Positions 20,687 to 33,090 of a stretch of 33,525 nucleotides of DNA are shown here, piece by piece (position 1 is the first letter of the stretch; every line of letters starts with the position of its first letter). The translations under genes were made by a program, and so were the position numbers. The notes beneath the pieces are model-generated. The model had not been told where the DNA came from. It saw nothing but the letters and a program-made list of their open reading frames with translations, and ran no database searches. This DNA is from an uncultured delta proteobacterium (GTDB lineage: Bacteria; Myxococcota; Myxococcia; Myxococcales; 40CM-4-68-19): the NCBI GenBank assembly GCA_903911145.1, contig CAIWCD010000012.1:1-33525 (forward strand). The letters run 5' to 3'.

Positions 20687-21616
20687 CTAGCCTCCCAGAT
20701 CTGTTCTGTGCCCGAGGTGGTGCTTGCGCAGAAACCGCTCCAGCGCAAGCTGGATCAGCTCAGGTTGTTCAACCAGCGCCGCGTGAGAGCCGTCGCGCAC
20801 GACGAGCAGCTCTGCATGAGGAATCGCTTTCGCCATCTCTTCCGAGCGGAACATCGGCGTGAAGAGATCGCGCGAGCCGGCGATGACGAGCGTCGGCAGG
20901 TGCAGGCTCGGCAGGAAATCGGTCGCATCGTGCGTGAGCAGATCGCGAAAGAGCGCGAAGTAGCAGCGCAGATCGAGGCCCGCGAGATGCGCGAAGTAGG
21001 GCTCGAACTCCTCGCGCGGGCAGAGGTCGGGATGCACGAGGCCCATCGCGCGCACGAGCGGCCAGAGGCCCGGCGTCTGCAACGACCGGCGCAACACCTG
21101 CTCGGCGAGGCCCGTGCGCGAAGAAGTGAATGCCAGCGCAGCACGCACAAGCGGAAGCAGGCGGGCGCTGATCGGGAAGCTCTCGAAGATGCGCCCGGGC
21201 GCGCCCAGCATGGGCACAAAGCCGAGCGCGCGCGAAGGCGCTTGACGAATCGCCTCGAGCCCGACCTGGCAGCCCATCGAGTGTCCGAGCAGCACCGCGT
21301 GTCTGGCTCCGACTGCATCGGCGACGGTCCAGAGATCGCTCGCGCAGCCCGCGACCGTCAGTTCTTCAGGATGCGCGGGAACCGGAGACGCGCCGTGGCC
21401 GCGATAGTCCCACGTGATCACCGGCCGCTCGCCGCCGAACTGCTCCGCGATGAAGTGCCAGAAGAAGCTGCTCACGCCGATGCCGTTCGCGCAGAGCAGC
21501 GGCACGCCTGTGCCTGCACCATCGACGCGCCAGCGCAACTCGGCCCCGTCGGCCGCGCGCGCAGTTCCCACCCGGACAGGCGCGAGCCTGGCTTCGCTCT
21601 GGAGCGCTTCGCTCAC
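20687..21616 (-). CDS. Alpha/beta hydrolase (309 aa)
   Basis: Serine hydrolase with the full triad visible: Ser113 in GHSMG, Asp250 in IAGSRDLFTP and His278 in DGSHAALVEQP. The oxyanion region is LLCANGIGVSSFFW (40-53), and TWDYRGHGAS marks the usual strand 4 turn. Length and layout match esterase/lipase-like members; the substrate is unknown and there is no export signal. GTG start at 21616 overlaps the OmpA-lipoprotein stop (GTGA). The GAF gene begins directly after its stop. Position between an envelope lipoprotein and a GAF protein suggests co-regulation rather than a shared reaction. Confidence 0.92.
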   Translation of the reverse strand: MSEALQSEARLAPVRVGTARAADGAELRWRVDGAGTGVPLLCANGIGVSSFFWHFIAEQFGGERPVITWDYRGHGASPVPAHPEELTVAGCASDLWTVADAVGARHAVLLGHSMGCQVGLEAIRQAPSRALGFVPMLGAPGRIFESFPISARLLPLVRAALAFTSSRTGLAEQVLRRSLQTPGLWPLVRAMGLVHPDLCPREEFEPYFAHLAGLDLRCYFALFRDLLTHDATDFLPSLHLPTLVIAGSRDLFTPMFRSEEMAKAIPHAELLVVRDGSHAALVEQPELIQLALERFLRKHHLGHRTDLGG

Positions 21617-22770
21617 TTCTTCTCCACCATGCGGAACTCGACGCGACGATTGGACGCCTTGCCCGCGCGGGTCACATTGCTCGCGATCGGCCGCGTCGGC
21701 CCGTAGCCCTCGGACACGATCTGCTGCGGATCGACTCCCTGCTTGATCAGATATTCGCGCACCGACTCCGCGCGCGCGCTCGAGAGCTTCATGTTGTCGT
21801 CGATCGTCCCGACGTTGTCGGTGTGCCCCTCGACGCGCATTTTCACCAGCGGCGCGTCCTTGATCGCCTGCGCCACTTCACGCAGGAGCTCGAAGCTGTC
21901 CGGCAGAATTCGTGACTTGTTGGTCGCAAAATGGACCTGCTGCTTGAGCTCGATTCGATCGCGCCGGACGATGATCAGCGACTGCTTGCGAGGGCAGCCT
22001 TCGTTGTCCTTCGGGCCCGGCTCATCGGGGCACTTGTCGTCCTTGTCGGGCACGCCATCGCCATCGCGATCAGCCCAGGGGCAGCCACCGTTCTCGGCGG
22101 GACCAGCGACGAGCGGGCAGCGATCGAGCCGATCGATGAGACCATCGCCATCGGTGTCGCGATCGGGGCAGCCCTGGTTCTCCTTGGGGCCGAACTCGGT
22201 CGGGCACTTGTCGTCCTTGTCGGGGATGCCATCGCCGTCGGTGTCGGGCCACGGGCAGCCGAAGTTCTCCTTCGGGCCGGGCACATCGGGGCAGCGGTCG
22301 AGCGTGTCGGGAACGCCGTCGCCGTCCTTGTCCGTCTGCAGCGGGCAGCCGCGATTCTCCTTCGGGCCCGGGACGTCGGGGCAGAGATCGTCGATGTCCG
22401 GCACGCCGTCGCCGTCGGTGTCCTTGAGCGCCACCGGCGCGGGCGCGGGCTTCTCACGAATGAGCACCTGCACCGGCGCGCAATCTTTGGAGAGCACGAC
22501 CGCCTGCTTGGCCGCCTTCTGCGCGACGTCGAGATGCTCCTCGGCGCGGAAGCTGTCGCCCTGCTCGAGCTCGATTTCGGTAAAGCGCAGATTCGCCTCG
22601 GCCGTCGCGAGCTCGCGGGGAGCGCACTGGAGTGCGTTCGACTTGCGCGCCGCCGAGATGTCTTCGCGCACCACCCGCCCACGCCCGCGATCGGCGAGCT
22701 GCGCGCCAGTCATGCAGGAGAGGCTCGCAAGCAGCGCGATGAGGCCAGGAGCGGTCACGCGCGATTTCAC
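21613..22770 (-). CDS. OmpA-family outer-membrane lipoprotein with five TSP3 repeats (385 aa)
   Basis: An N-terminal hydrophobic segment (IALLASLSC, residues 11-19) ends in a Cys that fits an imperfect lipobox. A helical region follows (about 40-95). Residues ~117-260 hold five thrombospondin type 3 repeats of the form DxDGDGxPDxxDxCP...GCP, which bind calcium through their Asp ladder. Residues ~262-385 are the OmpA C-terminal domain (VHFATNKSRI, GHTDNVG, LSSARAESVREYL, NRRVEF), which holds peptidoglycan. GTG start at 22770 overlaps the upstream stop (GTGA). It likely links outer membrane and cell wall. Pairing with a DUF4398-type lipoprotein upstream is a common layout. Confidence 0.93.
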   Translation of the reverse strand: MKSRVTAPGLIALLASLSCMTGAQLADRGRGRVVREDISAARKSNALQCAPRELATAEANLRFTEIELEQGDSFRAEEHLDVAQKAAKQAVVLSKDCAPVQVLIREKPAPAPVALKDTDGDGVPDIDDLCPDVPGPKENRGCPLQTDKDGDGVPDTLDRCPDVPGPKENFGCPWPDTDGDGIPDKDDKCPTEFGPKENQGCPDRDTDGDGLIDRLDRCPLVAGPAENGGCPWADRDGDGVPDKDDKCPDEPGPKDNEGCPRKQSLIIVRRDRIELKQQVHFATNKSRILPDSFELLREVAQAIKDAPLVKMRVEGHTDNVGTIDDNMKLSSARAESVREYLIKQGVDPQQIVSEGYGPTRPIASNVTRAGKASNRRVEFRMVEKK

Positions 22771-23384
22771 GGCTTGCTCCCGGAAGGAATGATCGGCGTG
22801 CGCGCGGGAGCCGCAGGCGGCGGAGTTCCAGCATCGGGCGGACTCGATGCTGCCGGCGCGGTGGGTGCGCTGCTGGCCTTCGCGGTCGATGCCGCAGGCG
22901 CGGCAGAAGGCCCCGCATCGGGTGCGGTCGCAGGGGCGGTCTTCGCGGGCGCCGCGACGACAACAGGAGCGGGCGCGACCTCGATCGCCTCATGCTTGAT
23001 GGTCGCCTGGGGTGCCGGTGTCGAGGCGGAGTTGCGCGCAGCGAGTGCCTTCTGCGACGCGCTCTCCGCGAGTTCGGCGCTCTTCTTCGCAAACTCGCTC
23101 GCCGCGTCGTAGTGCGCCCGGCCCGACTCCTCACGCGCCTTCTGCAGATAGAGATCGGCCGAGGTCGTCTCGTAGATCGCCAGCTTGTCGCCGTCGGCCG
23201 CGTGGGCCTGCGCGACCGCCTGCTCCGCGTCGCTGATCACCACCGCCGACCCGATCGGCCCGCAGCCGAGCAGTGGCAGCGCCAGGGCGAGCACGAACGT
23301 CAACGGCGGGAGTCGGGGATTGTGCGCGGTCAAGAGGGGCGAGAGTCGACAACGAAGATCGGTCGGTGTCAACGAAAGCCTCAT
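22767..23384 (-). CDS. DUF4398-like lipoprotein with Pro/Ala-rich tail (205 aa)
   Basis: Signal segment PLTFVLALALPLLGCG with the lipidation Cys near residue 41. The n-region before it is unusually long for a signal peptide, so the true start may lie after the ATG at 23384. Residues ~50-115 (DAEQAVAQAHAADGDKLAIY, LYLQKAREESGRAHYDAASE) form two helices like DUF4398, found in periplasmic lipoproteins next to OmpA-like genes. The final ~90 residues are Pro/Ala/Thr-rich and probably unstructured, long enough to reach the peptidoglycan. First gene of the four-gene overlapping operon that ends with the GAF protein. Confidence 0.8.
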   Translation of the reverse strand: MRLSLTPTDLRCRLSPLLTAHNPRLPPLTFVLALALPLLGCGPIGSAVVISDAEQAVAQAHAADGDKLAIYETTSADLYLQKAREESGRAHYDAASEFAKKSAELAESASQKALAARNSASTPAPQATIKHEAIEVAPAPVVVAAPAKTAPATAPDAGPSAAPAASTAKASSAPTAPAASSPPDAGTPPPAAPARTPIIPSGSKP

Positions 23385-23449
23385 GCCGATCGACCAGGCT
23401 GACGGGAGCAGGAGCGGCCGCGCACGCCCCGCCCCTGTCTGCGAGAGCG

Positions 23450-23977
23450 CTACTTCCCCTTGATCGCCGAGATCTCGATGTCGAACTCAACCTTCTCGCT
23501 CACCAGCACGCCGCCGGCCTCGAGCGCCTGGTTCCACGAGAGGCCGTAGTCGATGCGGTTGAGGCTGCCCCGCGCCGAGAAGGCGACGCGGTCATTGCCC
23601 CACGGATCCTTGCCCGCACCCTCGCGCGAGACGTCGAATCCGATCTCCTTCGTCACGCCGTGCAGCGTGAGATCGCCCGTCACCTTGAATTTGTCACCCG
23701 AGCCCTCGAGCCGCTTGCTCGCGAACGTGATCTTGGGAAACTTCTCGGCGTCGAAGAAGTCGGGGCTCTTGAGATGTCCGTCGCGCTTGGCCTCCTGCGT
23801 GTTGATGCTGCCGACGTCGATCTCACCCTTGATGCTGGCGTGCGCGAGATCTCCTTCGTCGAACGAGATCGAGCCGGTCCAGACGCCGAAGCTGCCGCGC
23901 ACCTTCGCGATCATCATGTGGCGGACGGAGAAGGTGATGCTCGAGTGCGACGCGTCGATGTTCCACTGGGTGGCCAT
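23450..23977 (-). CDS. YceI-family lipid-binding protein, no signal peptide (175 aa)
   Basis: Lipocalin-like beta-barrel of the YceI family, which binds polyisoprenoids or other long lipids. Family blocks are WNIDASHSSITFSVRHMMIAKVRGSF, SINTQEAKRDGHLKSPDFF, FPKITFASK and LTLHGVTKEIGFD. AGGAG seven bases before the ATG at 23977 fixes the start. The chain begins directly with the barrel, so unlike E. coli YceI it lacks a signal peptide and is probably cytoplasmic. It stands alone, 66 bases upstream of the next operon start. No partner (such as a cytochrome b561) is nearby. Confidence 0.93.
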   Translation of the reverse strand: MATQWNIDASHSSITFSVRHMMIAKVRGSFGVWTGSISFDEGDLAHASIKGEIDVGSINTQEAKRDGHLKSPDFFDAEKFPKITFASKRLEGSGDKFKVTGDLTLHGVTKEIGFDVSREGAGKDPWGNDRVAFSARGSLNRIDYGLSWNQALEAGGVLVSEKVEFDIEISAIKGK

Positions 23978-24114
23978 GCGGTGTCTCCTGGGTTGCGCGC
24001 GGGTGGGGAATCTGCGCGGGGAGGAGAGCTAATCGCTGCGCTTTCATTTTGCAAGTCGCTTTACAAAAGAAAGCATCTGTCGATCGGCGCTTCGTGCTGC
24101 CGACGCAAGACGCA

Positions 24115-24151
24115 CGAAGGCCCCGCGGAGATGCATCCCGCGAGGCCTTCG
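24115..24151. terminator. Strong hairpin after the surface-lipoprotein genes
   Basis: Arms 24115-24129 and 24137-24151 (CGAAGGCC.CGCGG type) pair along about 14 bases with one mismatch around a seven-base loop. It lies 40 bases after the stop of the last surface-lipoprotein gene. No clear T-tract follows on either side, so either a GC-rich intrinsic terminator or an mRNA-end stabiliser is possible. No other gene was seen in 23978-24191. Confidence 0.6.
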
Positions 24152-24191
24152 GTTGCTTCACGATGAGGAGGCGTCAGTGCGTGCCGTCTGC

Positions 24192-26744
24192 TCAGTGCGT
24201 CCAGCTCGACGTCTCGGTCCAGCCGTCGATCTGCACCTGCCCGGCACTTCCCGGCGTGCCCGATTGCGGGGCGGTGCCGCCCGAGACGGAGATACCGGCC
24301 GGAGCTGGCACGGTCACCGACGAGAGGCCGTTCGTGCTGAAGATCCGGACGGTGCCGCCGGAGCCACCGCTGCCAGTGGCTCCGGTCGCCGCGGCGCCGA
24401 GCGCGACCAGATCGCCGATGTCGTTCACTGTCGTGCCCGTCAGCGAGATCGTGCTCGCGTTGCCTCCCTGCAAGATGCCGGGGCCGCCGCTGACGTCGAT
24501 GCTGTTCGTGCTGGTCACCGCGCCGTTGTCCGAGCCCATCGAGACCGGCCTGCCGATTCCACCGGGACCGCTCGCGCTCGCGCCTCCCCGCGCGATGATC
24601 GTCCCGCTGTTGGTCACGCCGGTCAGTCCGTAGAAGCGAACACCGGCCGGAACCAGCGTGTTCAAAGTCGCGACGAGCCGGGTCGATGCTCCGCCCGTGA
24701 TGTCGATGTTGCCGGCGTTCACCACCTGCTCGAACGAATCGCCAGCAAAGAAGTAGGCCTGCTGCGTGGAGAGGCTCACGCTCCCGCTCGTCCCGCCACT
24801 GCCCGACCCGCCTGTTCCGCCGCGCGCGATCAGATCGGCATAGTTGATGACGCTACCGCCCGGGCCGTAGCCTGTTCCGTTCACGACGGCCGCACGGTTC
24901 TGGCAGTCCACACAGCCCACGGTGGGATTGTAGTAGGTATTGATCATCTGAATCGGCGCCCCGCTGCCGCCGTTCTGCAGGCCGTCTCCGCCGCTCGCGC
25001 TGAGCTGCGAATAGCCGTAGAGGATCACCTCCTGGCCGTTGGGCTGGTAGTTGGTATCGAACCAGATCGCGACGTTGCCGGCGCCGCCACCACCGGTGCC
25101 ACCGAATCCGCCTGAGCTGTTGAGATTGCCGGAGACCATCACGTCGCCGCCGGGAACGAGTCGGTTGTTTCCCGTCACGGCGGACCGCTGGCTTCCCGAC
25201 ATCTCGATGTAGATCAGGCCGCCGCTGCCGCCCGCGCCGTTCGCCGACGAGCCGCCGCGCGTCGTGATGGCGGCGTTGTTCACCACCGTGCCGGCGTAAG
25301 CATAGACGTCGATCTCCCTGCCGTTGCCCGCCGCGCAGCCCGTCGTGCAGCTCGCGGCGACGTCGCCGCCTTTGGATGTCAGCGTGCCGGAGTTGCGCAC
25401 CGAGGCCGCCGCCTTGTCACCTCCATAGAGGGCAATTCCACCAGCGCTGCCTCCCTGGGTCATGCCCGTTCCGCCGCTCGCGTCGATGGGGCCGGAGTTG
25501 TTCAGATCGAGGTACGGGTAGAACAACACCTGCCCGCCGTTGCCGCCGCTCCCACTCGAGCCGTTGCCGCCGGTGGTCTGGATGATGCCCGTGTTGAACA
25601 TCGAAGCCGGACTTCCGTTGTAGCCATTCATGCGGATCTGGCCGCCGTTGCCGCCGCTGCTCCCGTTGCCGCCAGTCGCAGAGATCAGCCCCTGGTTCCA
25701 GAGGGGAGAGGCGACGATGTCGATCCCTCCGCTGCTGGTCCCGTTGGCGCTCGAGGCGTCGATGCCATTGTTGAGAACCGCCGAGGTGGCATCGCCGAAA
25801 TAGGAGTCGGCGAGGATCAACAGCGCGACCTGCACCCCGGCGTTGGCGAGCGCAATCGTGCCCGCGTTCAGGATCGGGCCCTTGACCCTGAAATTGACCG
25901 GGTTCGACGGGAGGGGGATGAGCGTGACCGTCACGCCGGGCGCGATCGAGAGGCCAGTCACCTCCGTCGAGCCGCCGTCCGTCGGGTTGTCGAGCAGCGC
26001 GACGATGTCGTTCTTGTCGAGGTAGAGCGTGCCCGCGCCTGCGTCGGTGCTCAACGGGTCGAGCGATTCGATCGTGGTGTTCGCGGTGATGTTCGCCGGC
26101 GTCGCGCCGAGGTCGACCGCAGGCTTCGCCGGAAAGGTGAAGCTCGGGTCGGCCGCGCCGGTCTTGAAGACCTTGACGTGCCCGCCGATGGTGCCGTTCC
26201 AGAATCCGATCTGGATCTCGCCGCCGTTTCCGCCGCTGCCGGCGTCGCTGTTGCCGCCGAGCGCGCTGATGGTCGAGTCGCCGGGCGAGCCCACCGGCGC
26301 AATGATCGAGCCGACATTCTCCGCGCTGCCGCTGCAGACGTAGCTGGTGCTGGTGATTTCGCCGGGCTGGAGAATTCCGTCGTTCGCCGTGCCGCCGTGG
26401 GCGCCGTTGTCGAGGCCGCTGTCGATCCGCTGCCCACCGCCGGCGCAGTTCGCATCGCCGACCTCCAGCGTGGTCGTCTTCACGAGCGTGGTGAAACCAG
26501 CGGCGCCGTTGGTCCCGTTGGCGCCATTGCCACCGTCGACGCCGTTCGCGCCGTTGGTCCCGTTGGTTCCATTTGAGCCGTTGCAGACGATCTGCGGCGC
26601 ACCGCTATCGACGACGATCGAGACGCCGCCCGTCGGGCACTGCGCCCCTGGCGCGATCGCCGTCATGGTCACGGTCGACTTGCCGCAGGAGAGCGCGAGA
26701 AACACCAGCGACAAAGAGGCTGCGCGAAGAAACGTTCGAGTCAT
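24192..26744 (-). CDS. Gly/Asn-rich repetitive surface lipoprotein, paralogue 1 (850 aa)
   Basis: Signal-type N-terminus MTRTFLRAASLSLVFLALSC with Cys20 likely lipidated. Residues 55-84 are collagen-like Gly-X-Y triplets, mostly GTN and GAN. Residues ~84-140 (TTLVKTTTLEVGDANC to TSTSYVCSG) resemble the domain that I recall as DUF7151 beside collagen-like stretches in myxobacterial proteins. From ~155 to the end the chain is repeats of about 30-40 residues of the form N-x-G-x-I-x-x-x-GG followed by Gly-rich turns, probably a beta-solenoid. It ends GWTETSSWTH. Few cysteines lie in the repeats (ASCTTGC, CVDC). GGGAG five bases before the ATG at 26744 supports the start. Last of three tandem paralogues. 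An adhesin or matrix role is inferred. Confidence 0.85.
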   Translation of the reverse strand: MTRTFLRAASLSLVFLALSCGKSTVTMTAIAPGAQCPTGGVSIVVDSGAPQIVCNGSNGTNGTNGANGVDGGNGANGTNGAAGFTTLVKTTTLEVGDANCAGGGQRIDSGLDNGAHGGTANDGILQPGEITSTSYVCSGSAENVGSIIAPVGSPGDSTISALGGNSDAGSGGNGGEIQIGFWNGTIGGHVKVFKTGAADPSFTFPAKPAVDLGATPANITANTTIESLDPLSTDAGAGTLYLDKNDIVALLDNPTDGGSTEVTGLSIAPGVTVTLIPLPSNPVNFRVKGPILNAGTIALANAGVQVALLILADSYFGDATSAVLNNGIDASSANGTSSGGIDIVASPLWNQGLISATGGNGSSGGNGGQIRMNGYNGSPASMFNTGIIQTTGGNGSSGSGGNGGQVLFYPYLDLNNSGPIDASGGTGMTQGGSAGGIALYGGDKAAASVRNSGTLTSKGGDVAASCTTGCAAGNGREIDVYAYAGTVVNNAAITTRGGSSANGAGGSGGLIYIEMSGSQRSAVTGNNRLVPGGDVMVSGNLNSSGGFGGTGGGGAGNVAIWFDTNYQPNGQEVILYGYSQLSASGGDGLQNGGSGAPIQMINTYYNPTVGCVDCQNRAAVVNGTGYGPGGSVINYADLIARGGTGGSGSGGTSGSVSLSTQQAYFFAGDSFEQVVNAGNIDITGGASTRLVATLNTLVPAGVRFYGLTGVTNSGTIIARGGASASGPGGIGRPVSMGSDNGAVTSTNSIDVSGGPGILQGGNASTISLTGTTVNDIGDLVALGAAATGATGSGGSGGTVRIFSTNGLSSVTVPAPAGISVSGGTAPQSGTPGSAGQVQIDGWTETSSWTH

Positions 26745-26821
26745 TGGACTCCCAAACAGAGCTGAGGCGAAAAGGGTTGGAGAGGATCGGTCCGTCGAGT
26801 GCGGTGAGCGCAGCCTCGAGG

Positions 26822-29410
26822 TCAGTGCGTCCAGCTCGACGTCAGGTTCCAGCCGTCGATGGTCACCGTCCCCACTTTGCCGGGCGTGCCCGCTTGCGCA
26901 GCCGCACCGCCCGCGACCGAAACGCCTCCGGGCGCCGCGACAGAGATGGACGACGAGCCCGCGGAACTCCCGATGACGATCGTACCTCCGGCGCCGCCTG
27001 AGCCCCCGACGGAAGCGCTCGCTGCGCCACCCTTCGCCACCAGGTCTGCGGAGACGGTGACTGTCGTTCCTTGAAGATCGAGCTGGGCAGAGCCGCCTCC
27101 CTGTGTGACGCCGTCGCCGCCACTCACGTCGATGGCGGCCGAGCTGATCACTTCGCCGTTGTCCGAGGTGAGCCTGGAACTGTTGGCGTCCGTGCCCCCG
27201 CTCGCAGCGAGGCCGACCCCACCTCTCGCGGTCAAAGGGCCGCTGTTGGTGACGCCGGTCAAACCGTAGAATTGGAAGGAGCCGCCGCTGCCGCCGCTCT
27301 GGCCGTCACCGCCACCGACATCCACGCGGCCCGTGTTGCGCACCTGCTCGAACGCGTCACCGGGGAAGTAGTAGCTCGACTGCGTAATCAGCTGAACCTG
27401 TCCGCCGCTGCCGCCGGAGCCAGCGCCGCTTGCGCCACCGCGCGAGACGAGATCGACGTCGTTGATCACGCTGCCGCCCGGTCCGTACGTCACGCTCTGC
27501 GCCTGCGCCTTGCACACGTTGCAGCCGTCCGAGCTGTAATAGGTGTTCTCGAGCTGAATCTCACCGCCGGATCCGCCTCCGATCGCCCCCGAACCACCGC
27601 TCGCGTCGATGCGCGCATATCCGTAGAGGATGATCTCCTGGCCGTTGGGCTGCACGTTCGGATCGAGATAGACGCCGAGCAGGCCCGCATTCCCGCCGCG
27701 CGTGGCCCCCGTGCCGCCGGAGCTGTCGACAGAGCCCGAAAGGACCAGATCGCCAGCCGGACTGAGCGGCACTCTCCCGGCGACGACCGCTGCGTTGCTC
27801 GCCCCCAGAGTGACGATGATCTGGCCGCCGGAGCCGCCCGCGCCGTTCGCCGACGAACCGCCACGCGACGTGAGGGCCGCGTTGTTCACCAGCGTTCCGT
27901 TGTTGGCCGCGAGGATCACCCCGCCACCGTTGCCGCCGATGCAGCTGACGACCTCGCCGAAGACGCAGCTTGCGTCGACGCTGCCGCCGATGGTGTGGAT
28001 CGTGCCGGAGTTGCGAGTCGAGCCGATGCCGCCCTCGCGGTCTCCCGCGTAGATCCCGACTTCGCCGCCGTTCCCGCCCACCGTCGTCCCCGAGCCGCCG
28101 ACAGCCGAGAGCGGTCCTGAGTTGTTCGCATCGAGCCCAACTTCGAAGACAACCGAGCCCGCGTTGCCGCCGCTGCCGAACGTGCCAGCACCGCCATTGG
28201 CCTCAACGATGCCCGTGTTGAACAGAGATGTTGGCGTCCCGCCGTTTGCGAGCAGATCGATCTTTCCGCCGTTGCCGCCGTTGCGCCCGGTGCCACCGTT
28301 GGCCGAGATGAGTCCCCGGTTCCAGATTGGCGAAGCACTGATAGAGATCCCGCCGCTGCTGGTTCCGTCGGCAACGCTCCCACTATTTCGCTGGCTCCTG
28401 GCATTGGTGAGAACTCCGTCGAGGCCGTTGTTGAGCACCTGCGACGTGCTGTCGCCGAAATAACCGCCGCTGCTCTTGACCACCAACAAGAGGCGGGCAC
28501 CGACGTTGCCGAGGACGATGGAGCCCGAGTTGAAGATCGAGCCGTTGACCCCGATCACGTAGGAGCTCCCCACTGACCCCGGGACGAGCGTGAGCGTCGC
28601 GCCCGCGCTGATCGAGAGGCTGGTCGCCTCGATCGAGCCGCCGTCGACCGCATCGTCGAGCATCGCAAGCGTGTTGTTGCTGTCGATGTAGAGCGTGCCC
28701 ACGCCGGCGTCGGTGTTCGACGGATCGAGCGGACCCACTGTGGTGTCCACCGCGATGTGTACAGGCGACGCGCCAGGATCGAACGTGGGCGCCGTCGGGA
28801 AGGCGAAGCTCGGATCGGCCGCACCGGTCTTGAAGACCTTCACGTGGCCGCCGAACGATCCGTTCCACATCTGAACGTAGACGCCATCGCTGTTGCCGCC
28901 GAAGCCGGCGTCGGCGCTGCCGCCCACCGCAGTGATCGTCGAATCTCCCGTCGCCCCCGAAGGCGCTGCGATCGAGCCGACAACGTCTCCGCTGCCATTG
29001 CAGACGTAGCTGGTGCTGGTGATCTCGCCGGCCTGGAGAATTCCGTCGTTCGCGGTGCCGCCGTGGGCGCCGTTGTCGAGGCCGCTGTCGATCTGCTGCC
29101 CGCCGCTCGCGCAGTTCGCGTCACCGACAGCAAGCATGGTCGTGCGCACGAGCGTGGTGAATCCGCTGCTGCCGTTGGTACCGTTCGTGCCGTTGCCTCC
29201 ATCGACGCCGTTGGTGCCATTGGTGCCGTTGGTGGCGTTCGACCCGTTGCAGATGATTTGCGGCGTGCCGTTGTCGATGCTGATCGACGTGCCGCCGGTC
29301 GGGCACTGCGCGCCGGGCGCGATCGGCATCACCGTCACAGTCGACTTGCCGCAGGAGATCGCGAGCACGCAGAGCAACGGCGGGACTGCACGGAGAGTGA
29401 ATCGGGTCAT
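26822..29410 (-). CDS. Gly/Asn-rich repetitive surface lipoprotein, paralogue 2 (862 aa)
   Basis: Same plan as its neighbours: signal segment (MTRFTLRAVPPLLCVLAISC), GKSTVT motif, collagen-like triplets (GTN repeats), the TTLVRTTMLAVGDANC-to-SYVCNG domain, then the Gly-rich solenoid ending GWNLTSSWTH. I chose the ATG at 29410, with a GGTGGA ribosome site about eight bases upstream, over an in-frame ATG at 29431. The cysteine pair near residue 640 is CNVC, matching CVDC and CHEC in the other two. DNA identity with the paralogues is very high in the stretch coding for GITSTSYVC-type sequence (28990-29090), which hints at recent duplication or gene conversion. The stop is 77 bases before paralogue 1. 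Confidence 0.85.
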   Translation of the reverse strand: MTRFTLRAVPPLLCVLAISCGKSTVTVMPIAPGAQCPTGGTSISIDNGTPQIICNGSNATNGTNGTNGVDGGNGTNGTNGSSGFTTLVRTTMLAVGDANCASGGQQIDSGLDNGAHGGTANDGILQAGEITSTSYVCNGSGDVVGSIAAPSGATGDSTITAVGGSADAGFGGNSDGVYVQMWNGSFGGHVKVFKTGAADPSFAFPTAPTFDPGASPVHIAVDTTVGPLDPSNTDAGVGTLYIDSNNTLAMLDDAVDGGSIEATSLSISAGATLTLVPGSVGSSYVIGVNGSIFNSGSIVLGNVGARLLLVVKSSGGYFGDSTSQVLNNGLDGVLTNARSQRNSGSVADGTSSGGISISASPIWNRGLISANGGTGRNGGNGGKIDLLANGGTPTSLFNTGIVEANGGAGTFGSGGNAGSVVFEVGLDANNSGPLSAVGGSGTTVGGNGGEVGIYAGDREGGIGSTRNSGTIHTIGGSVDASCVFGEVVSCIGGNGGGVILAANNGTLVNNAALTSRGGSSANGAGGSGGQIIVTLGASNAAVVAGRVPLSPAGDLVLSGSVDSSGGTGATRGGNAGLLGVYLDPNVQPNGQEIILYGYARIDASGGSGAIGGGSGGEIQLENTYYSSDGCNVCKAQAQSVTYGPGGSVINDVDLVSRGGASGAGSGGSGGQVQLITQSSYYFPGDAFEQVRNTGRVDVGGGDGQSGGSGGSFQFYGLTGVTNSGPLTARGGVGLAASGGTDANSSRLTSDNGEVISSAAIDVSGGDGVTQGGGSAQLDLQGTTVTVSADLVAKGGAASASVGGSGGAGGTIVIGSSAGSSSISVAAPGGVSVAGGAAAQAGTPGKVGTVTIDGWNLTSSWTH

Positions 29411-29513
29411 TGAATTTCCACCAGGCTTCAAGAAAGGGCGCGGCGCGCAATCAGTGAATGCGCAGCGCTGTCACGGAGAGATTCCAGTCGCGCAGAGAAC
29501 GAGCAGTTCACGC

Positions 29514-32123
29514 TCAGTGCGTCCAACTCGAGGTGAGATTCCAGCCGTCGATGTTCACCTGGCCCGCGGCGCCGGGCGTGCCCGACTGAAGTGCGGTGCC
29601 GCCCGCCACCGAGATACCCGCCGGCGCTGCCACCGTTACCGAGGAGAAACCAATCGTGCTGGTGATCTGGACGCCGCCGCCGGTGCCGCCGTTGCATTCT
29701 GCGGCGGTGGACACACCGCCCGCCGCGATCAGCGCGCCCGTATCGACCGCGGTCGTGCCTGCGAACACGATCGTGCCGGCCCCTCCACCGTTGGACCAGG
29801 AGCTTGCACCGCCGCTGACGTCGATGGTGTTCGAGTTGGTCACCACGCCATTGTCCGAGCCCAACCAGACCCCTTTGACGGAGCCCCCATTCAAACCCGC
29901 GCTCGCGCCGCCGCGCGCCGTGATCCCGCCGAGGTTGGTTACGCCAGTCAGGCCATAGAACCGGACCCCTGACGAATCCCCTCCATTCGACTCGGCGCCG
30001 GGCACCGTCGATGCACCGCCCGAGACGTCGATGTTGCCGGCGTTGATCACCTGCTCGAAGGCGTCGCCGCCGAAGTAGAACTGCGCCTGCGTGGAGAGAT
30101 TCAGCAAGCCGCCGCTGCCACCGATGCCGGTGCCGCCGGTGCCTCCTCGCGCGACGAGATCGGCGTAGTTGATCACGCTGCCTCCCGGTCCGTTGTTGGC
30201 GCCGTTCACGAGTGCCGAACGGAGCGCCCTGCACTCGTGGCAGATTCCCGGCGCGTAGTAGGTGTTGACCAGATCAAGCTCGGCGCCATTGCCGCCGTTG
30301 GTCGCGCCCGTACCGCCACTCGAGTTGAGCTGCGCGTAGCCGTAGAGGATCACCTCCTGGCCGTTGGGCTGGTAGTAGTTGTCGAAGGAGATCTGGACCG
30401 GCCCGGCGGCGCCGCCGTTCACGCCGCCGAACCCGCCAGAGCTGTCGATACTGCCGGAGAAGAGCAGGTCTCCCGGCGCGGTCAGGCGGGCGTTTCCGGT
30501 CACGGGCGAATTCTCTCCGGCGTCGACCAGGACGAAGACGCGAGCACCGGCGCCTCCCCTCCCGCCCCGTGAAGAGCCGCCGCGCGTCGAGATCGCGGCG
30601 TTGTTCGTCAGTGTGCCGCCCCAGTCCTGGACGTCGATTTCCGCGCCATTGCCCCCCGCGCAGGAGATGCCGTTCAACTGGGCGCAGCTCGCGGCAACGT
30701 CGCCGCCCTTTGCCGTCAGCGTGCCGGAATTGCGCAGCGCGGCCGAGACCCCGTAACCGCCGTAGAGGCCGATCTGTCCCGCCCATCCGCCTGCCGTCGT
30801 TCCGGCTCCGCCGCTCGCATCGATCGGGCCCGAGTTGTTCAGGTCGAGGTATGCCGCCAGGTGCACGTCGCCTCCGCTGCCGCCCGCGCCGTGTGCACCG
30901 ACGCCGCCCGTAGCCTGGATGATGCCGGTGTTGAACATCTCCGCCGCAGCGCCACGGTTTCCCTGGAGCGTGATGCCGCCGCCGTTGCCGCCGCTGGCCC
31001 CGTTGCCGCCTTTGGCCGAAAGAAGTCCCTCGTTCCAGATCGGCGAAGCGGTGATGACGATCCCGCCGCTGTGGCTTCCATTGGAGCTTGCACCGGCGTT
31101 CTGCAGCGCCCTGCCGGGAGGGAGCGCGGCGCCGTCGATGCCGTTGTTCAGGATCGCCGAGGTGATGTCGCCGAAGTAGGCGTTGGCGTTGATCTGCAGC
31201 GCGATCGCAGCGCCGACGTTGGCGAGCGTGATGGTGCCCGCGTTCACAATCGCGCCGTTGACCCCGAAGTAGGTCGTCGTCGCGTTGATCGCTGGGGTCA
31301 TGAAGACTGTCACGCCGGCCGCGATCGAGATGCCCGTCACCTCCGTCGAACCGCCGTCCTCCGGGTCGTCGAGTCGAGCAATCATGTTGTTGCCATCGAC
31401 GTAGAGCGTGCCCCTGCCCGCGTCGGTGCTCGATGGATCGAGCGAATCGATCGTGGTGTCTGCCGTGATGTTTGCAGGCGTCTCGCCGAGATCGACAACG
31501 GGCTTCTCCGGGAAGATGAAGCTCGGATCGGCCGCGCCGGTCCTGAAGACCTTCACGTGTCCGCCGATGGTGCCATTCTCGAAGCCGATGAAGATCACGC
31601 CGCCATCGCCACCAGCGCCCGCGTCGCTATCGCCACCCACCGCAGCGATCGTCGAGTCGCCCGCGGAGCCCGAGGGCGCAACGATCGAGCCGACGTTCTC
31701 GGCGCTGCCGTTGCAGACGTAGCTGGTGCTGGTGATCTCGCCGGCCTGGAGGATGCCGTCGTTCGCCGTGCCGCCGTTGGCGCCGTTGTCGAGGCCGCTG
31801 TCGATCCGCTGCCCGCCACCGGCGCAGTTCGCGTCGCCAACCAGCAGCGTTGTCGTCTTCACCAGCGTGGTGAACCCGTTGCTGCCATTGGTCCCGTTGG
31901 TGCCGTTGCCGCCGTCGACGCCGTTGGATCCGTTCGTGCCATTGGTCCCGTTCGTCCCGCTGCAGACGATCTGCGCCGCGCCGTTGTCGACAACGATCGA
32001 GATGCCGCCCGTCGGGCACTGCGCACCGGGCGCGATCTGCGTGACCGTCACAGTCGACTTGCCGCAGGTGATGGCGAGGCAAACGAGCGCCAGCGGCGCC
32101 ACGCGAAGAGACATACGAGTCAT
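29514..32123 (-). CDS. Gly/Asn-rich repetitive surface lipoprotein, paralogue 3 (869 aa)
   Basis: First of the three in transcription order. Signal segment MTRMSLRVAPLALVCLAITC, GKSTVT motif, collagen-like triplets (GTN, GSN, GVD), a VGDANCAGGGQRIDSGLDNG domain, then the Gly-rich solenoid ending GWNLTSSWTH. I chose the ATG at 32123 because the paralogues begin with the same MTR motif; the frame extends to 32204 with unrelated sequence. The conserved cysteines are at ASCAQLNGISC and CHEC. The upstream gap (32124-32259) is shared with a divergent DUF1460 gene. TATCAA, with TTGCGC 16 bases before it, is a possible promoter. A shared transcript with paralogues 2 and 1 is likely, since gaps are 103 and 77 bases. 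Confidence 0.85.
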   Translation of the reverse strand: MTRMSLRVAPLALVCLAITCGKSTVTVTQIAPGAQCPTGGISIVVDNGAAQIVCSGTNGTNGTNGSNGVDGGNGTNGTNGSNGFTTLVKTTTLLVGDANCAGGGQRIDSGLDNGANGGTANDGILQAGEITSTSYVCNGSAENVGSIVAPSGSAGDSTIAAVGGDSDAGAGGDGGVIFIGFENGTIGGHVKVFRTGAADPSFIFPEKPVVDLGETPANITADTTIDSLDPSSTDAGRGTLYVDGNNMIARLDDPEDGGSTEVTGISIAAGVTVFMTPAINATTTYFGVNGAIVNAGTITLANVGAAIALQINANAYFGDITSAILNNGIDGAALPPGRALQNAGASSNGSHSGGIVITASPIWNEGLLSAKGGNGASGGNGGGITLQGNRGAAAEMFNTGIIQATGGVGAHGAGGSGGDVHLAAYLDLNNSGPIDASGGAGTTAGGWAGQIGLYGGYGVSAALRNSGTLTAKGGDVAASCAQLNGISCAGGNGAEIDVQDWGGTLTNNAAISTRGGSSRGGRGGAGARVFVLVDAGENSPVTGNARLTAPGDLLFSGSIDSSGGFGGVNGGAAGPVQISFDNYYQPNGQEVILYGYAQLNSSGGTGATNGGNGAELDLVNTYYAPGICHECRALRSALVNGANNGPGGSVINYADLVARGGTGGTGIGGSGGLLNLSTQAQFYFGGDAFEQVINAGNIDVSGGASTVPGAESNGGDSSGVRFYGLTGVTNLGGITARGGASAGLNGGSVKGVWLGSDNGVVTNSNTIDVSGGASSWSNGGGAGTIVFAGTTAVDTGALIAAGGVSTAAECNGGTGGGVQITSTIGFSSVTVAAPAGISVAGGTALQSGTPGAAGQVNIDGWNLTSSWTH

Positions 32124-32247
32124 GGAAATCCCGCCCGATGAATTTGATAGAGGCCGCGAAGAGCGGCGCAACCTACAGTCATCGTCCGACGGCGTGGGAG
32201 ACAAATTACTCGCGCGAAATCGATCGCAACGCCGCGAGCGGGAAGAC

Positions 32248-32253
32248 TAGACT
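32248..32253 (+). promoter_or_regulatory. Putative -10 box of the DUF1460 gene, leaderless arrangement
   Basis: TAGACT at 32248-32253, six bases before the ATG at 32260, with no Shine-Dalgarno between. The same hexamer is the -10 of the well-formed promoter at 3299-3304. Confidence 0.4.
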
Positions 32254-32259
32254 CGCCGC

Positions 32260-33090
32260 ATGATCGCGATCGCTCTCGCCCTCCTCGCCGCCGCGCCAAT
32301 CGCGCAACTCTCCGACGCACAACTCGATCAGAAGCTTGCAGGCGTGCAGAAGATGCTCGTCGTCGGCGACCGCATCGACGCTGTGAGTTCGCTCTTCGTC
32401 GGCACCCCCTACGTCGAATTCCCCCTCGGCGAAGGCGGCGACGGGCCGGAACCGCAGGCGCGCTGGCGGCTCGACGGCGTCGACTGCCAGACCTTCGTCG
32501 AGACGGTTCTCTCGCTCGCGAACGCGAAGTCGACCGCGCACGCCAAGGCGCTGCTCGATGACATCCGCTACAGCAAGCCGCCCCTCTCGTTCGCGCACCG
32601 CAATCACTTCACCGAGGCGCAGTGGCTGCCGGCGAACATCGAGAAGGGGTATCTGCGCGACGAGGTTCCTTCGATCGACGGGCGCGCGCCGGCGGCCGAC
32701 CTGCACCTCGCGCGCGCGAAGTGGAGCAAGCTGCCAGGCCTCGCGCGCCTCGCGAGCGCGGACATTCCCGAGGGGAAATTTCCCATCCGCTACCTCACTC
32801 CGGCGCAGCTCAAGAAGCGCGCGTCGAGCATCGAGATCGGCTCGGTGATCCTCGTGGTGCGCGAAGATGATCCGAAACGCATCGTGCGCACGAGCCACAT
32901 GGGATTCGTGCTGCGCGGCCCGCGCGGGCTCTTCGTGCGGCACGCGACCAGCGGCGCGGAGCACAAGGTGATCGACGAGCCACTCGATGACTATCTGACG
33001 CGCATGGACAGCTTCAAGAAGTGGCGCGTGATCGGCTTCGGTCTGGCAATGCCTCTCGACGCGAAGGTGCGCGCGGGGCAGGTGCAGTAG
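32260..33090 (+). CDS. DUF1460 protein, NlpC/P60-like amidase (276 aa)
   Basis: Exported enzyme of the DUF1460 family, whose members have a cysteine-peptidase fold and are thought to act as N-acetylmuramoyl-L-alanine amidase-like enzymes on cell-wall fragments. A short hydrophobic N-terminus (IAIALALLAAAPIA, residues 2-15) is a likely signal peptide. The nucleophile is Cys76 in GVDCQTFVETVLSL and the general base His213 in TSHMGFVLRG; SFAHRNHF and EIGSVILVV are further family blocks. Length is normal. Divergent from the surface-lipoprotein genes. The start lies six bases after a -10-like box and lacks a ribosome site. Confidence 0.9.
   Translation: MIAIALALLAAAPIAQLSDAQLDQKLAGVQKMLVVGDRIDAVSSLFVGTPYVEFPLGEGGDGPEPQARWRLDGVDCQTFVETVLSLANAKSTAHAKALLDDIRYSKPPLSFAHRNHFTEAQWLPANIEKGYLRDEVPSIDGRAPAADLHLARAKWSKLPGLARLASADIPEGKFPIRYLTPAQLKKRASSIEIGSVILVVREDDPKRIVRTSHMGFVLRGPRGLFVRHATSGAEHKVIDEPLDDYLTRMDSFKKWRVIGFGLAMPLDAKVRAGQVQ

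Follow-up and report, generated by a model that had tools for sequence, protein, structure and literature searches.

Does a tandem array of three related genes for putative surface lipoproteins serve as material for recombination, or is it the outcome of an old duplication, and what kind of protein do such genes encode? The question is raised by a locus in the window analyzed here (33,525 nucleotides, contig C12 in its entirety, from the 5.3 Mb, 99% complete genome of an uncultured relative of the myxobacteria), where the genes P3, P2 and P1 follow each other head to tail in this order, separated by 103 and 77 bp (Table 1). No intrinsic terminator was found between them; each is intact, has a start of its own and is preceded by a plausible ribosome site. 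A preliminary description of the locus had given coordinates, strand, codon counts (850, 862 and 869) and the C-terminal end TSSWTH common to P1, P2 and P3, all of which were exact when the translations were re-checked. Its view of the trio as paralogues with one architecture also holds: protein identity is 58% for P1 vs. P2, 68% for P1 vs. P3 and 57% for P2 vs. P3, and nucleotide identity over aligned codons is 67–74%. The word 'giant' was an overstatement, a paralogue elsewhere in the genome reaching 1122 aa.

The site between the AmiA-like gene and the DUF4398-OmpA genes (positions 23385–32259 of the window) is variable. Here it holds a YceI-like gene and the trio; in G002 and G004, the AmiA and DUF4398 genes are adjacent and the site is empty; in G001, a genome of the same genus, it is occupied by two unrelated genes, one phosphodiester-glycosidase-like and one acetyltransferase-like (annotation by eye). 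In the relatives examined, the YceI-like gene was not found at this site, and no functional gene was seen adjoining every paralogue.

Table 1 Features of the locus (positions in the window).
Feature	Position	Strand	Remarks
OmpA/TSP3 protein	21613–22770	minus	Thrombospondin type 3 repeats; beside the DUF4398-like gene; conserved in the family
DUF4398-like protein	22767–23384	minus	Part of the other conserved border of the site (21613..23384)
YceI-like gene	23450–23977	minus	PF04264, 1.5e-50; downstream of P1
P1	24192–26744	minus	850 aa; last gene of the trio; AlphaFold2 model made for P1
P1 residues 151–846, predicted right-handed beta-helix	24207–26294	minus	AlphaFold2; P2 and P3 equivalents by alignment
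DUF7151 of P1	26334–26486	minus	44.0 bits; most conserved DNA patch of P1
P1 Gly-X-Y (GSN/GTN/GAN) segment, residues 56–85	26490–26579	minus	10 triplets, counted from residue 56; P2 and P3 have equivalents
P1 two-cysteine module CPTGG...CNG, residues 36–56	26577–26639	minus	Conserved in the family; same in P2 and P3
P2	26822–29410	minus	862 aa; middle gene; at the protein level the most diverged of the trio
DUF7151 of P2	29000–29152	minus	44.2 bits; most conserved DNA patch of P2
P3	29514–32123	minus	869 aa; leads the trio in the direction of transcription
DUF7151 of P3	31713–31868	minus	42.0 bits, cut-off 27.2 (genome search)
AmiA-like gene	32260–33090	plus	PF07313, 1.2e-27; conserved border of the site, divergent from P3

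The long stretches of near-identical DNA that had been described in the three genes exist at the named places and encode a single domain, DUF7151 (PF23657), which is matched in P1–P3 at 45–51 bits in a protein Pfam search and at 42–44 bits in the genome search, in all three above the curated Pfam cut-off of 27.2 bits. Their extent was overstated, however: each gene has a single main patch of ~90–150 bp, which coincides with DUF7151; 90-nt windows inside it are 94–96% identical among the trio, and the longest exact nucleotide runs between the genes are 39, 40 and 41 nt. DUF7151 is the most conserved part of the trio in protein sequence, too. In an alignment of 47 copies from bacteria and archaea, a Cys, an Asp, a Glu and a further Cys are invariant (47 of 47), and the trio has the same Cys pair and Asp..Glu loop. 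In many relatives, this loop reads DxNxNGxLxxxE, the pattern of an EF-hand-type calcium loop; in the trio, six extra residues stand between the same Asp and Glu, and this form is also present outside the trio. The domain has two forms (L058–L083), one with the compact loop and one with the six-residue insertion, and both can share one protein (L061). Judging by the Asp and Glu, which look like the ends of an EF-hand-type loop, DUF7151 may bind calcium. Modeled alone from the 47 sequences, the domain forms a three-strand sheet (pLDDT 86), for which fold searches returned no convincing solved relative (best Z = 2.9); this does not demonstrate a new fold. A viral structure library gave one match, to a phage tail fibre, which is not meaningful (TM-score 0.06–0.08). 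In the literature searched, no mention of DUF7151 was found.

Conversion between the copies was analyzed using sliding silent divergence, codon-match scans with permutation within amino-acid classes, and triplet runs and MaxChi tests; these numbered dozens over pairs and window sizes, and lone p values of 0.001–0.03 carry little weight. Silent sites show a dip in the DUF7151 patch (pS = 0.10–0.14 vs. a mean of ~0.45) that is weak evidence for conversion at best, because codon-match permutation in the trio gave uncorrected p values of 0.16–0.71 with 25-codon windows and 0.03–0.17 with 50-codon windows. The triplet tests were mostly non-significant. Two nominal signals emerged, one where sites with P1 = P2 cluster at P1 residues 494–511 (p = 0.001) and one from silent sites, which place a breakpoint near residue 442 (p = 0.002); neither was repeated by other window sizes or data types, and the cluster is explained equally well by a fast-evolving stretch of P3. 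No consistent conversion signal results from these tests; a small conversion long ago may have occurred. Silent informative sites are spread nearly evenly over the three pairs (59/63/61), whereas amino-acid informative sites favour P1–P3 (145 vs. 60 and 57), which fits duplications in short succession and, after them, a faster-changing P2 protein. The dS values between the trio copies (0.62–0.73, similar for all three pairs) match those of orthologous genes in two congeneric species (0.62–0.75, G000 vs. G001); the copies thus date from roughly the time of the species split in the genus, with no ongoing homogenization.

The preliminary description had proposed that the array offers material for recombination and for antigenic or adhesive variation; in its full form, the array would be a recombination cassette in which repeated conversion among the three copies generates variants. 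Tandem paralogy with locally near-identical DNA and the two isolated nominal signals are compatible with such a cassette, but the exact runs are short, the codon-match permutations gave nothing firmer, and the patch codes for a domain that is likewise the most conserved in protein sequence. Divergence at the between-species level, alike in all pairs, also argues against it, as does the fact that all copies are intact and hence give no sign of silent donors; the 494–511 cluster would be expected from rapid evolution of P3 as well. Comparison of DNA identity in pairs revealed no consistent tract or mosaic signal among the three copies of this one genome; divergence is roughly uniform. The proposal of recombination is thus unsupported, and we consider a cassette very improbable. 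Tandem paralogy with a conserved DNA patch need not imply recombination; in this locus, a conserved domain accounts for the patch.

At the N-terminus, the trio proteins have a conserved Cys-Gly-Lys at the end of the signal peptide. P1 and P2 fit the PROSITE-type lipobox pattern, P3 has Thr at −1, and the strict L-[AST]-[GA]-C lipobox matches no member of the trio; the paralogue on contig C13 has Pro at −3 of its candidate lipobox. Lipidation of the Cys is probable, although the lipobox is not clean, in P3 least so, and the lipid anchor proposed earlier is accordingly plausible but imperfect. In M. xanthus, sorting of lipoproteins to the extracellular matrix follows a rule of Ala at +7 (PMC3222651). 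P1–P3 carry Thr at +7 and have no Lys at +2; they do not follow this rule, by which the outer membrane would then be the default location. Between the anchor and the solenoid lies a Gly-X-Y segment of 8–10 triplets, mostly GTN and GAN, with no proline. The 'collagen-like neck' of the preliminary description survives as this short segment, but Pfam Collagen (PF01391) has no match in P1–P3 and the likeness is one of sequence; the same family does match the paralogue on contig C23. The CPTGG...CNG module ahead of the spacer resembles DUF7151 minus its Asp..Glu loop.

The expectation that the Gly-rich NxGxI repeats form a long beta-solenoid was borne out. The motif NxGx[ILV] occurs 9–14 times per trio gene, compared to a shuffle mean of ~2, and the stricter N.G-type motif 8–9 times, compared to ~0.3 (maximum 4). 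In the AlphaFold2 model of P1 (mff0cbf8a90d7, five sequences; mean pLDDT 73.5, pTM 0.74), the first 150 residues are poorly predicted, whereas residues ~151–846, mostly at pLDDT 80–95, consist of regularly recurring short strands that make up a predicted right-handed beta-helix; the repetitive fold thus holds. On realignment with VIA-align, the best solved structures were the secretion domains of HMW1, HxuA and EtpA (Z = 15.1, 15.1 and 15.0; rmsd 2.5, 3.0 and 2.6 Å; 221–268 residues; 16–21% identity), with other beta-helices trailing in a band at Z = 8–12. Foldseek alone gave no PDB match with E < 0.001 for the P1 model, and the likeness to two-partner-secretion (TPS) domains rests on the realigned predicted model. 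A sequence search of solved structures yielded chance matches only, and NCBIfam and PHROGs yielded no match.

The NPNG motif is a mark of two-partner-secretion exoproteins (PMC5422565). It is absent from P1–P3, and the Pfam TPS domain (PF05860) has no match in them at E up to 1; because both the family profile and the motif are missing, the trio is not classed as TPS, and the resemblance is a likeness of fold, not membership. Descent of the beta-helix from TPS exoproteins of the FHA/HMW type, with the TPS export route swapped for a lipid anchor, would explain why three TPS domains top the list of solved structures. Against this stand the missing profile and motif and the ability of Gly/Asn-rich beta-helices to converge; searches of the genome with PF05860 and PF03865 (TpsB) were also without a match, to be read with the fact that the control for the former and all control genomes for the latter had none either. 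We regard such descent as unlikely. Slightly less so, but still doubtful, is a reading of the trio as a class of lipid-anchored, non-TPS beta-helix surface rods with a TPS-like fold and a DUF7151/Gly-X-Asn stalk that would reach the surface by a non-TpsB route. It is also conceivable that ice or a regular polysaccharide, not cells, is the ligand of the helix: a Ca-dependent beta-helical antifreeze protein appears in the VIA-align list at Z = 12.2, with polysaccharide epimerases and lyases further down. The antifreeze match, however, is weaker than the TPS matches (rmsd 4.1 Å, 9% identity) and Pfam gives no lyase or epimerase family match, and we find this quite unlikely.

Beyond the locus, the genome contains two further paralogues, each single, one of 897 aa on contig C13 and one of 1122 aa on contig C23. 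In the latter (L047:5760-9125), collagen-like Gly-Ala-Thr stretches alternate with four DUF7151 units ahead of the same beta-helix; together with the trio, this paralogue offers a natural series in which one head sits on stalks of different length. Within the family, genus g2 (G002, contig JANYKT010000084.1) carries a tandem pair at another locus, and nine other genomes had no match. The architecture is conserved over P1–P3, the two extra genomic paralogues and the two copies in the G002 genus. When contigs of relatives were searched, a single-protein query found none and an alignment query found 26 loci; in other families of the order (G137, G144, G039, G022), there are more distant relatives, either full-length or limited to the solenoid. 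In a tree without the most distant rows, P1–P3 group together (support 98/97); with two divergent outgroups added, this grouping loses resolution. Independent tandem growth in the two genera is likely. Instead of the beta-helix form, G001 encodes at L053:5085-7480 another long protein, collagen-like (GPQGPKGDTG type), in which short CxxGG..YVCNG modules recur.

Taken together, we consider it fairly probable that the trio proteins are rod-shaped outer-membrane surface lipoproteins, with an adhesive or coat role, that arose by old tandem duplication. The proteins would be exported; their signal peptide ends at Cys-Gly-Lys, where they are probably lipidated, and the lipid would keep them in the outer membrane. 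The anchor is followed by the CPTGG...CNG module, then by a flexible Gly-X-Asn spacer and a single DUF7151, a small three-strand, disulphide-capable domain; the remainder is a predicted Gly-rich right-handed beta-helix of ~700 residues with the conserved TSSWTH end. The lipid would hold the base of the rod, the spacer and DUF7151 would keep it at a distance from the membrane, and contacts, in adhesion or in a coat, would be made by the variable Gly/Asn/Ser-rich helix faces. The analysis shows the sequence architecture, the DUF7151 membership, the predicted fold, and the age and distribution of the copies; lipidation and calcium binding we infer, as we do surface exposure and adhesion, the last two from fold and composition. 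The trio itself probably arose when a gene at a variable site between other genes was duplicated in tandem long ago, with the copies then diverging independently. A fold and a domain plan are hereby supplied for proteins labeled only by a domain of unknown function, for which a calcium-loop reading is suggested. If located at the surface, a 700-residue beta-helix would have to cross the outer membrane without a TpsB partner.

Compared to known systems, the trio shares with the TPS exoproteins HMW1, HxuA and EtpA a predicted right-handed beta-helix, for which they are the best structural match (Z = 15), but differs from them in family profile, in the NPNG motif and in its probable lipid anchor; among the neighboring genes of the trio that were examined, there is no TpsB gene. 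DUF7151 proteins of Myxococcota, Poseidoniales archaea, Flavobacteriales and others have the same two-cysteine domain beside Gly-X-Y stretches, often in multiple copies; most of those found carry several units and another C-terminus, whereas the trio has one full unit and the long beta-helix. With bacterial collagen-like proteins, the trio has the 8–10 Gly-X-Y triplets in common, but not recognition by Pfam Collagen. The solenoid lipoproteins of G039 and G022, from another family of the same order, share the Gly-rich helix and the Cys after the signal peptide, but are without DUF7151 and the Gly-X-Y spacer, and their C-terminus is unlike that of the trio. The trio adds modestly to a known kind of bacterial surface protein, rather than forming an antigen-shuffling device.
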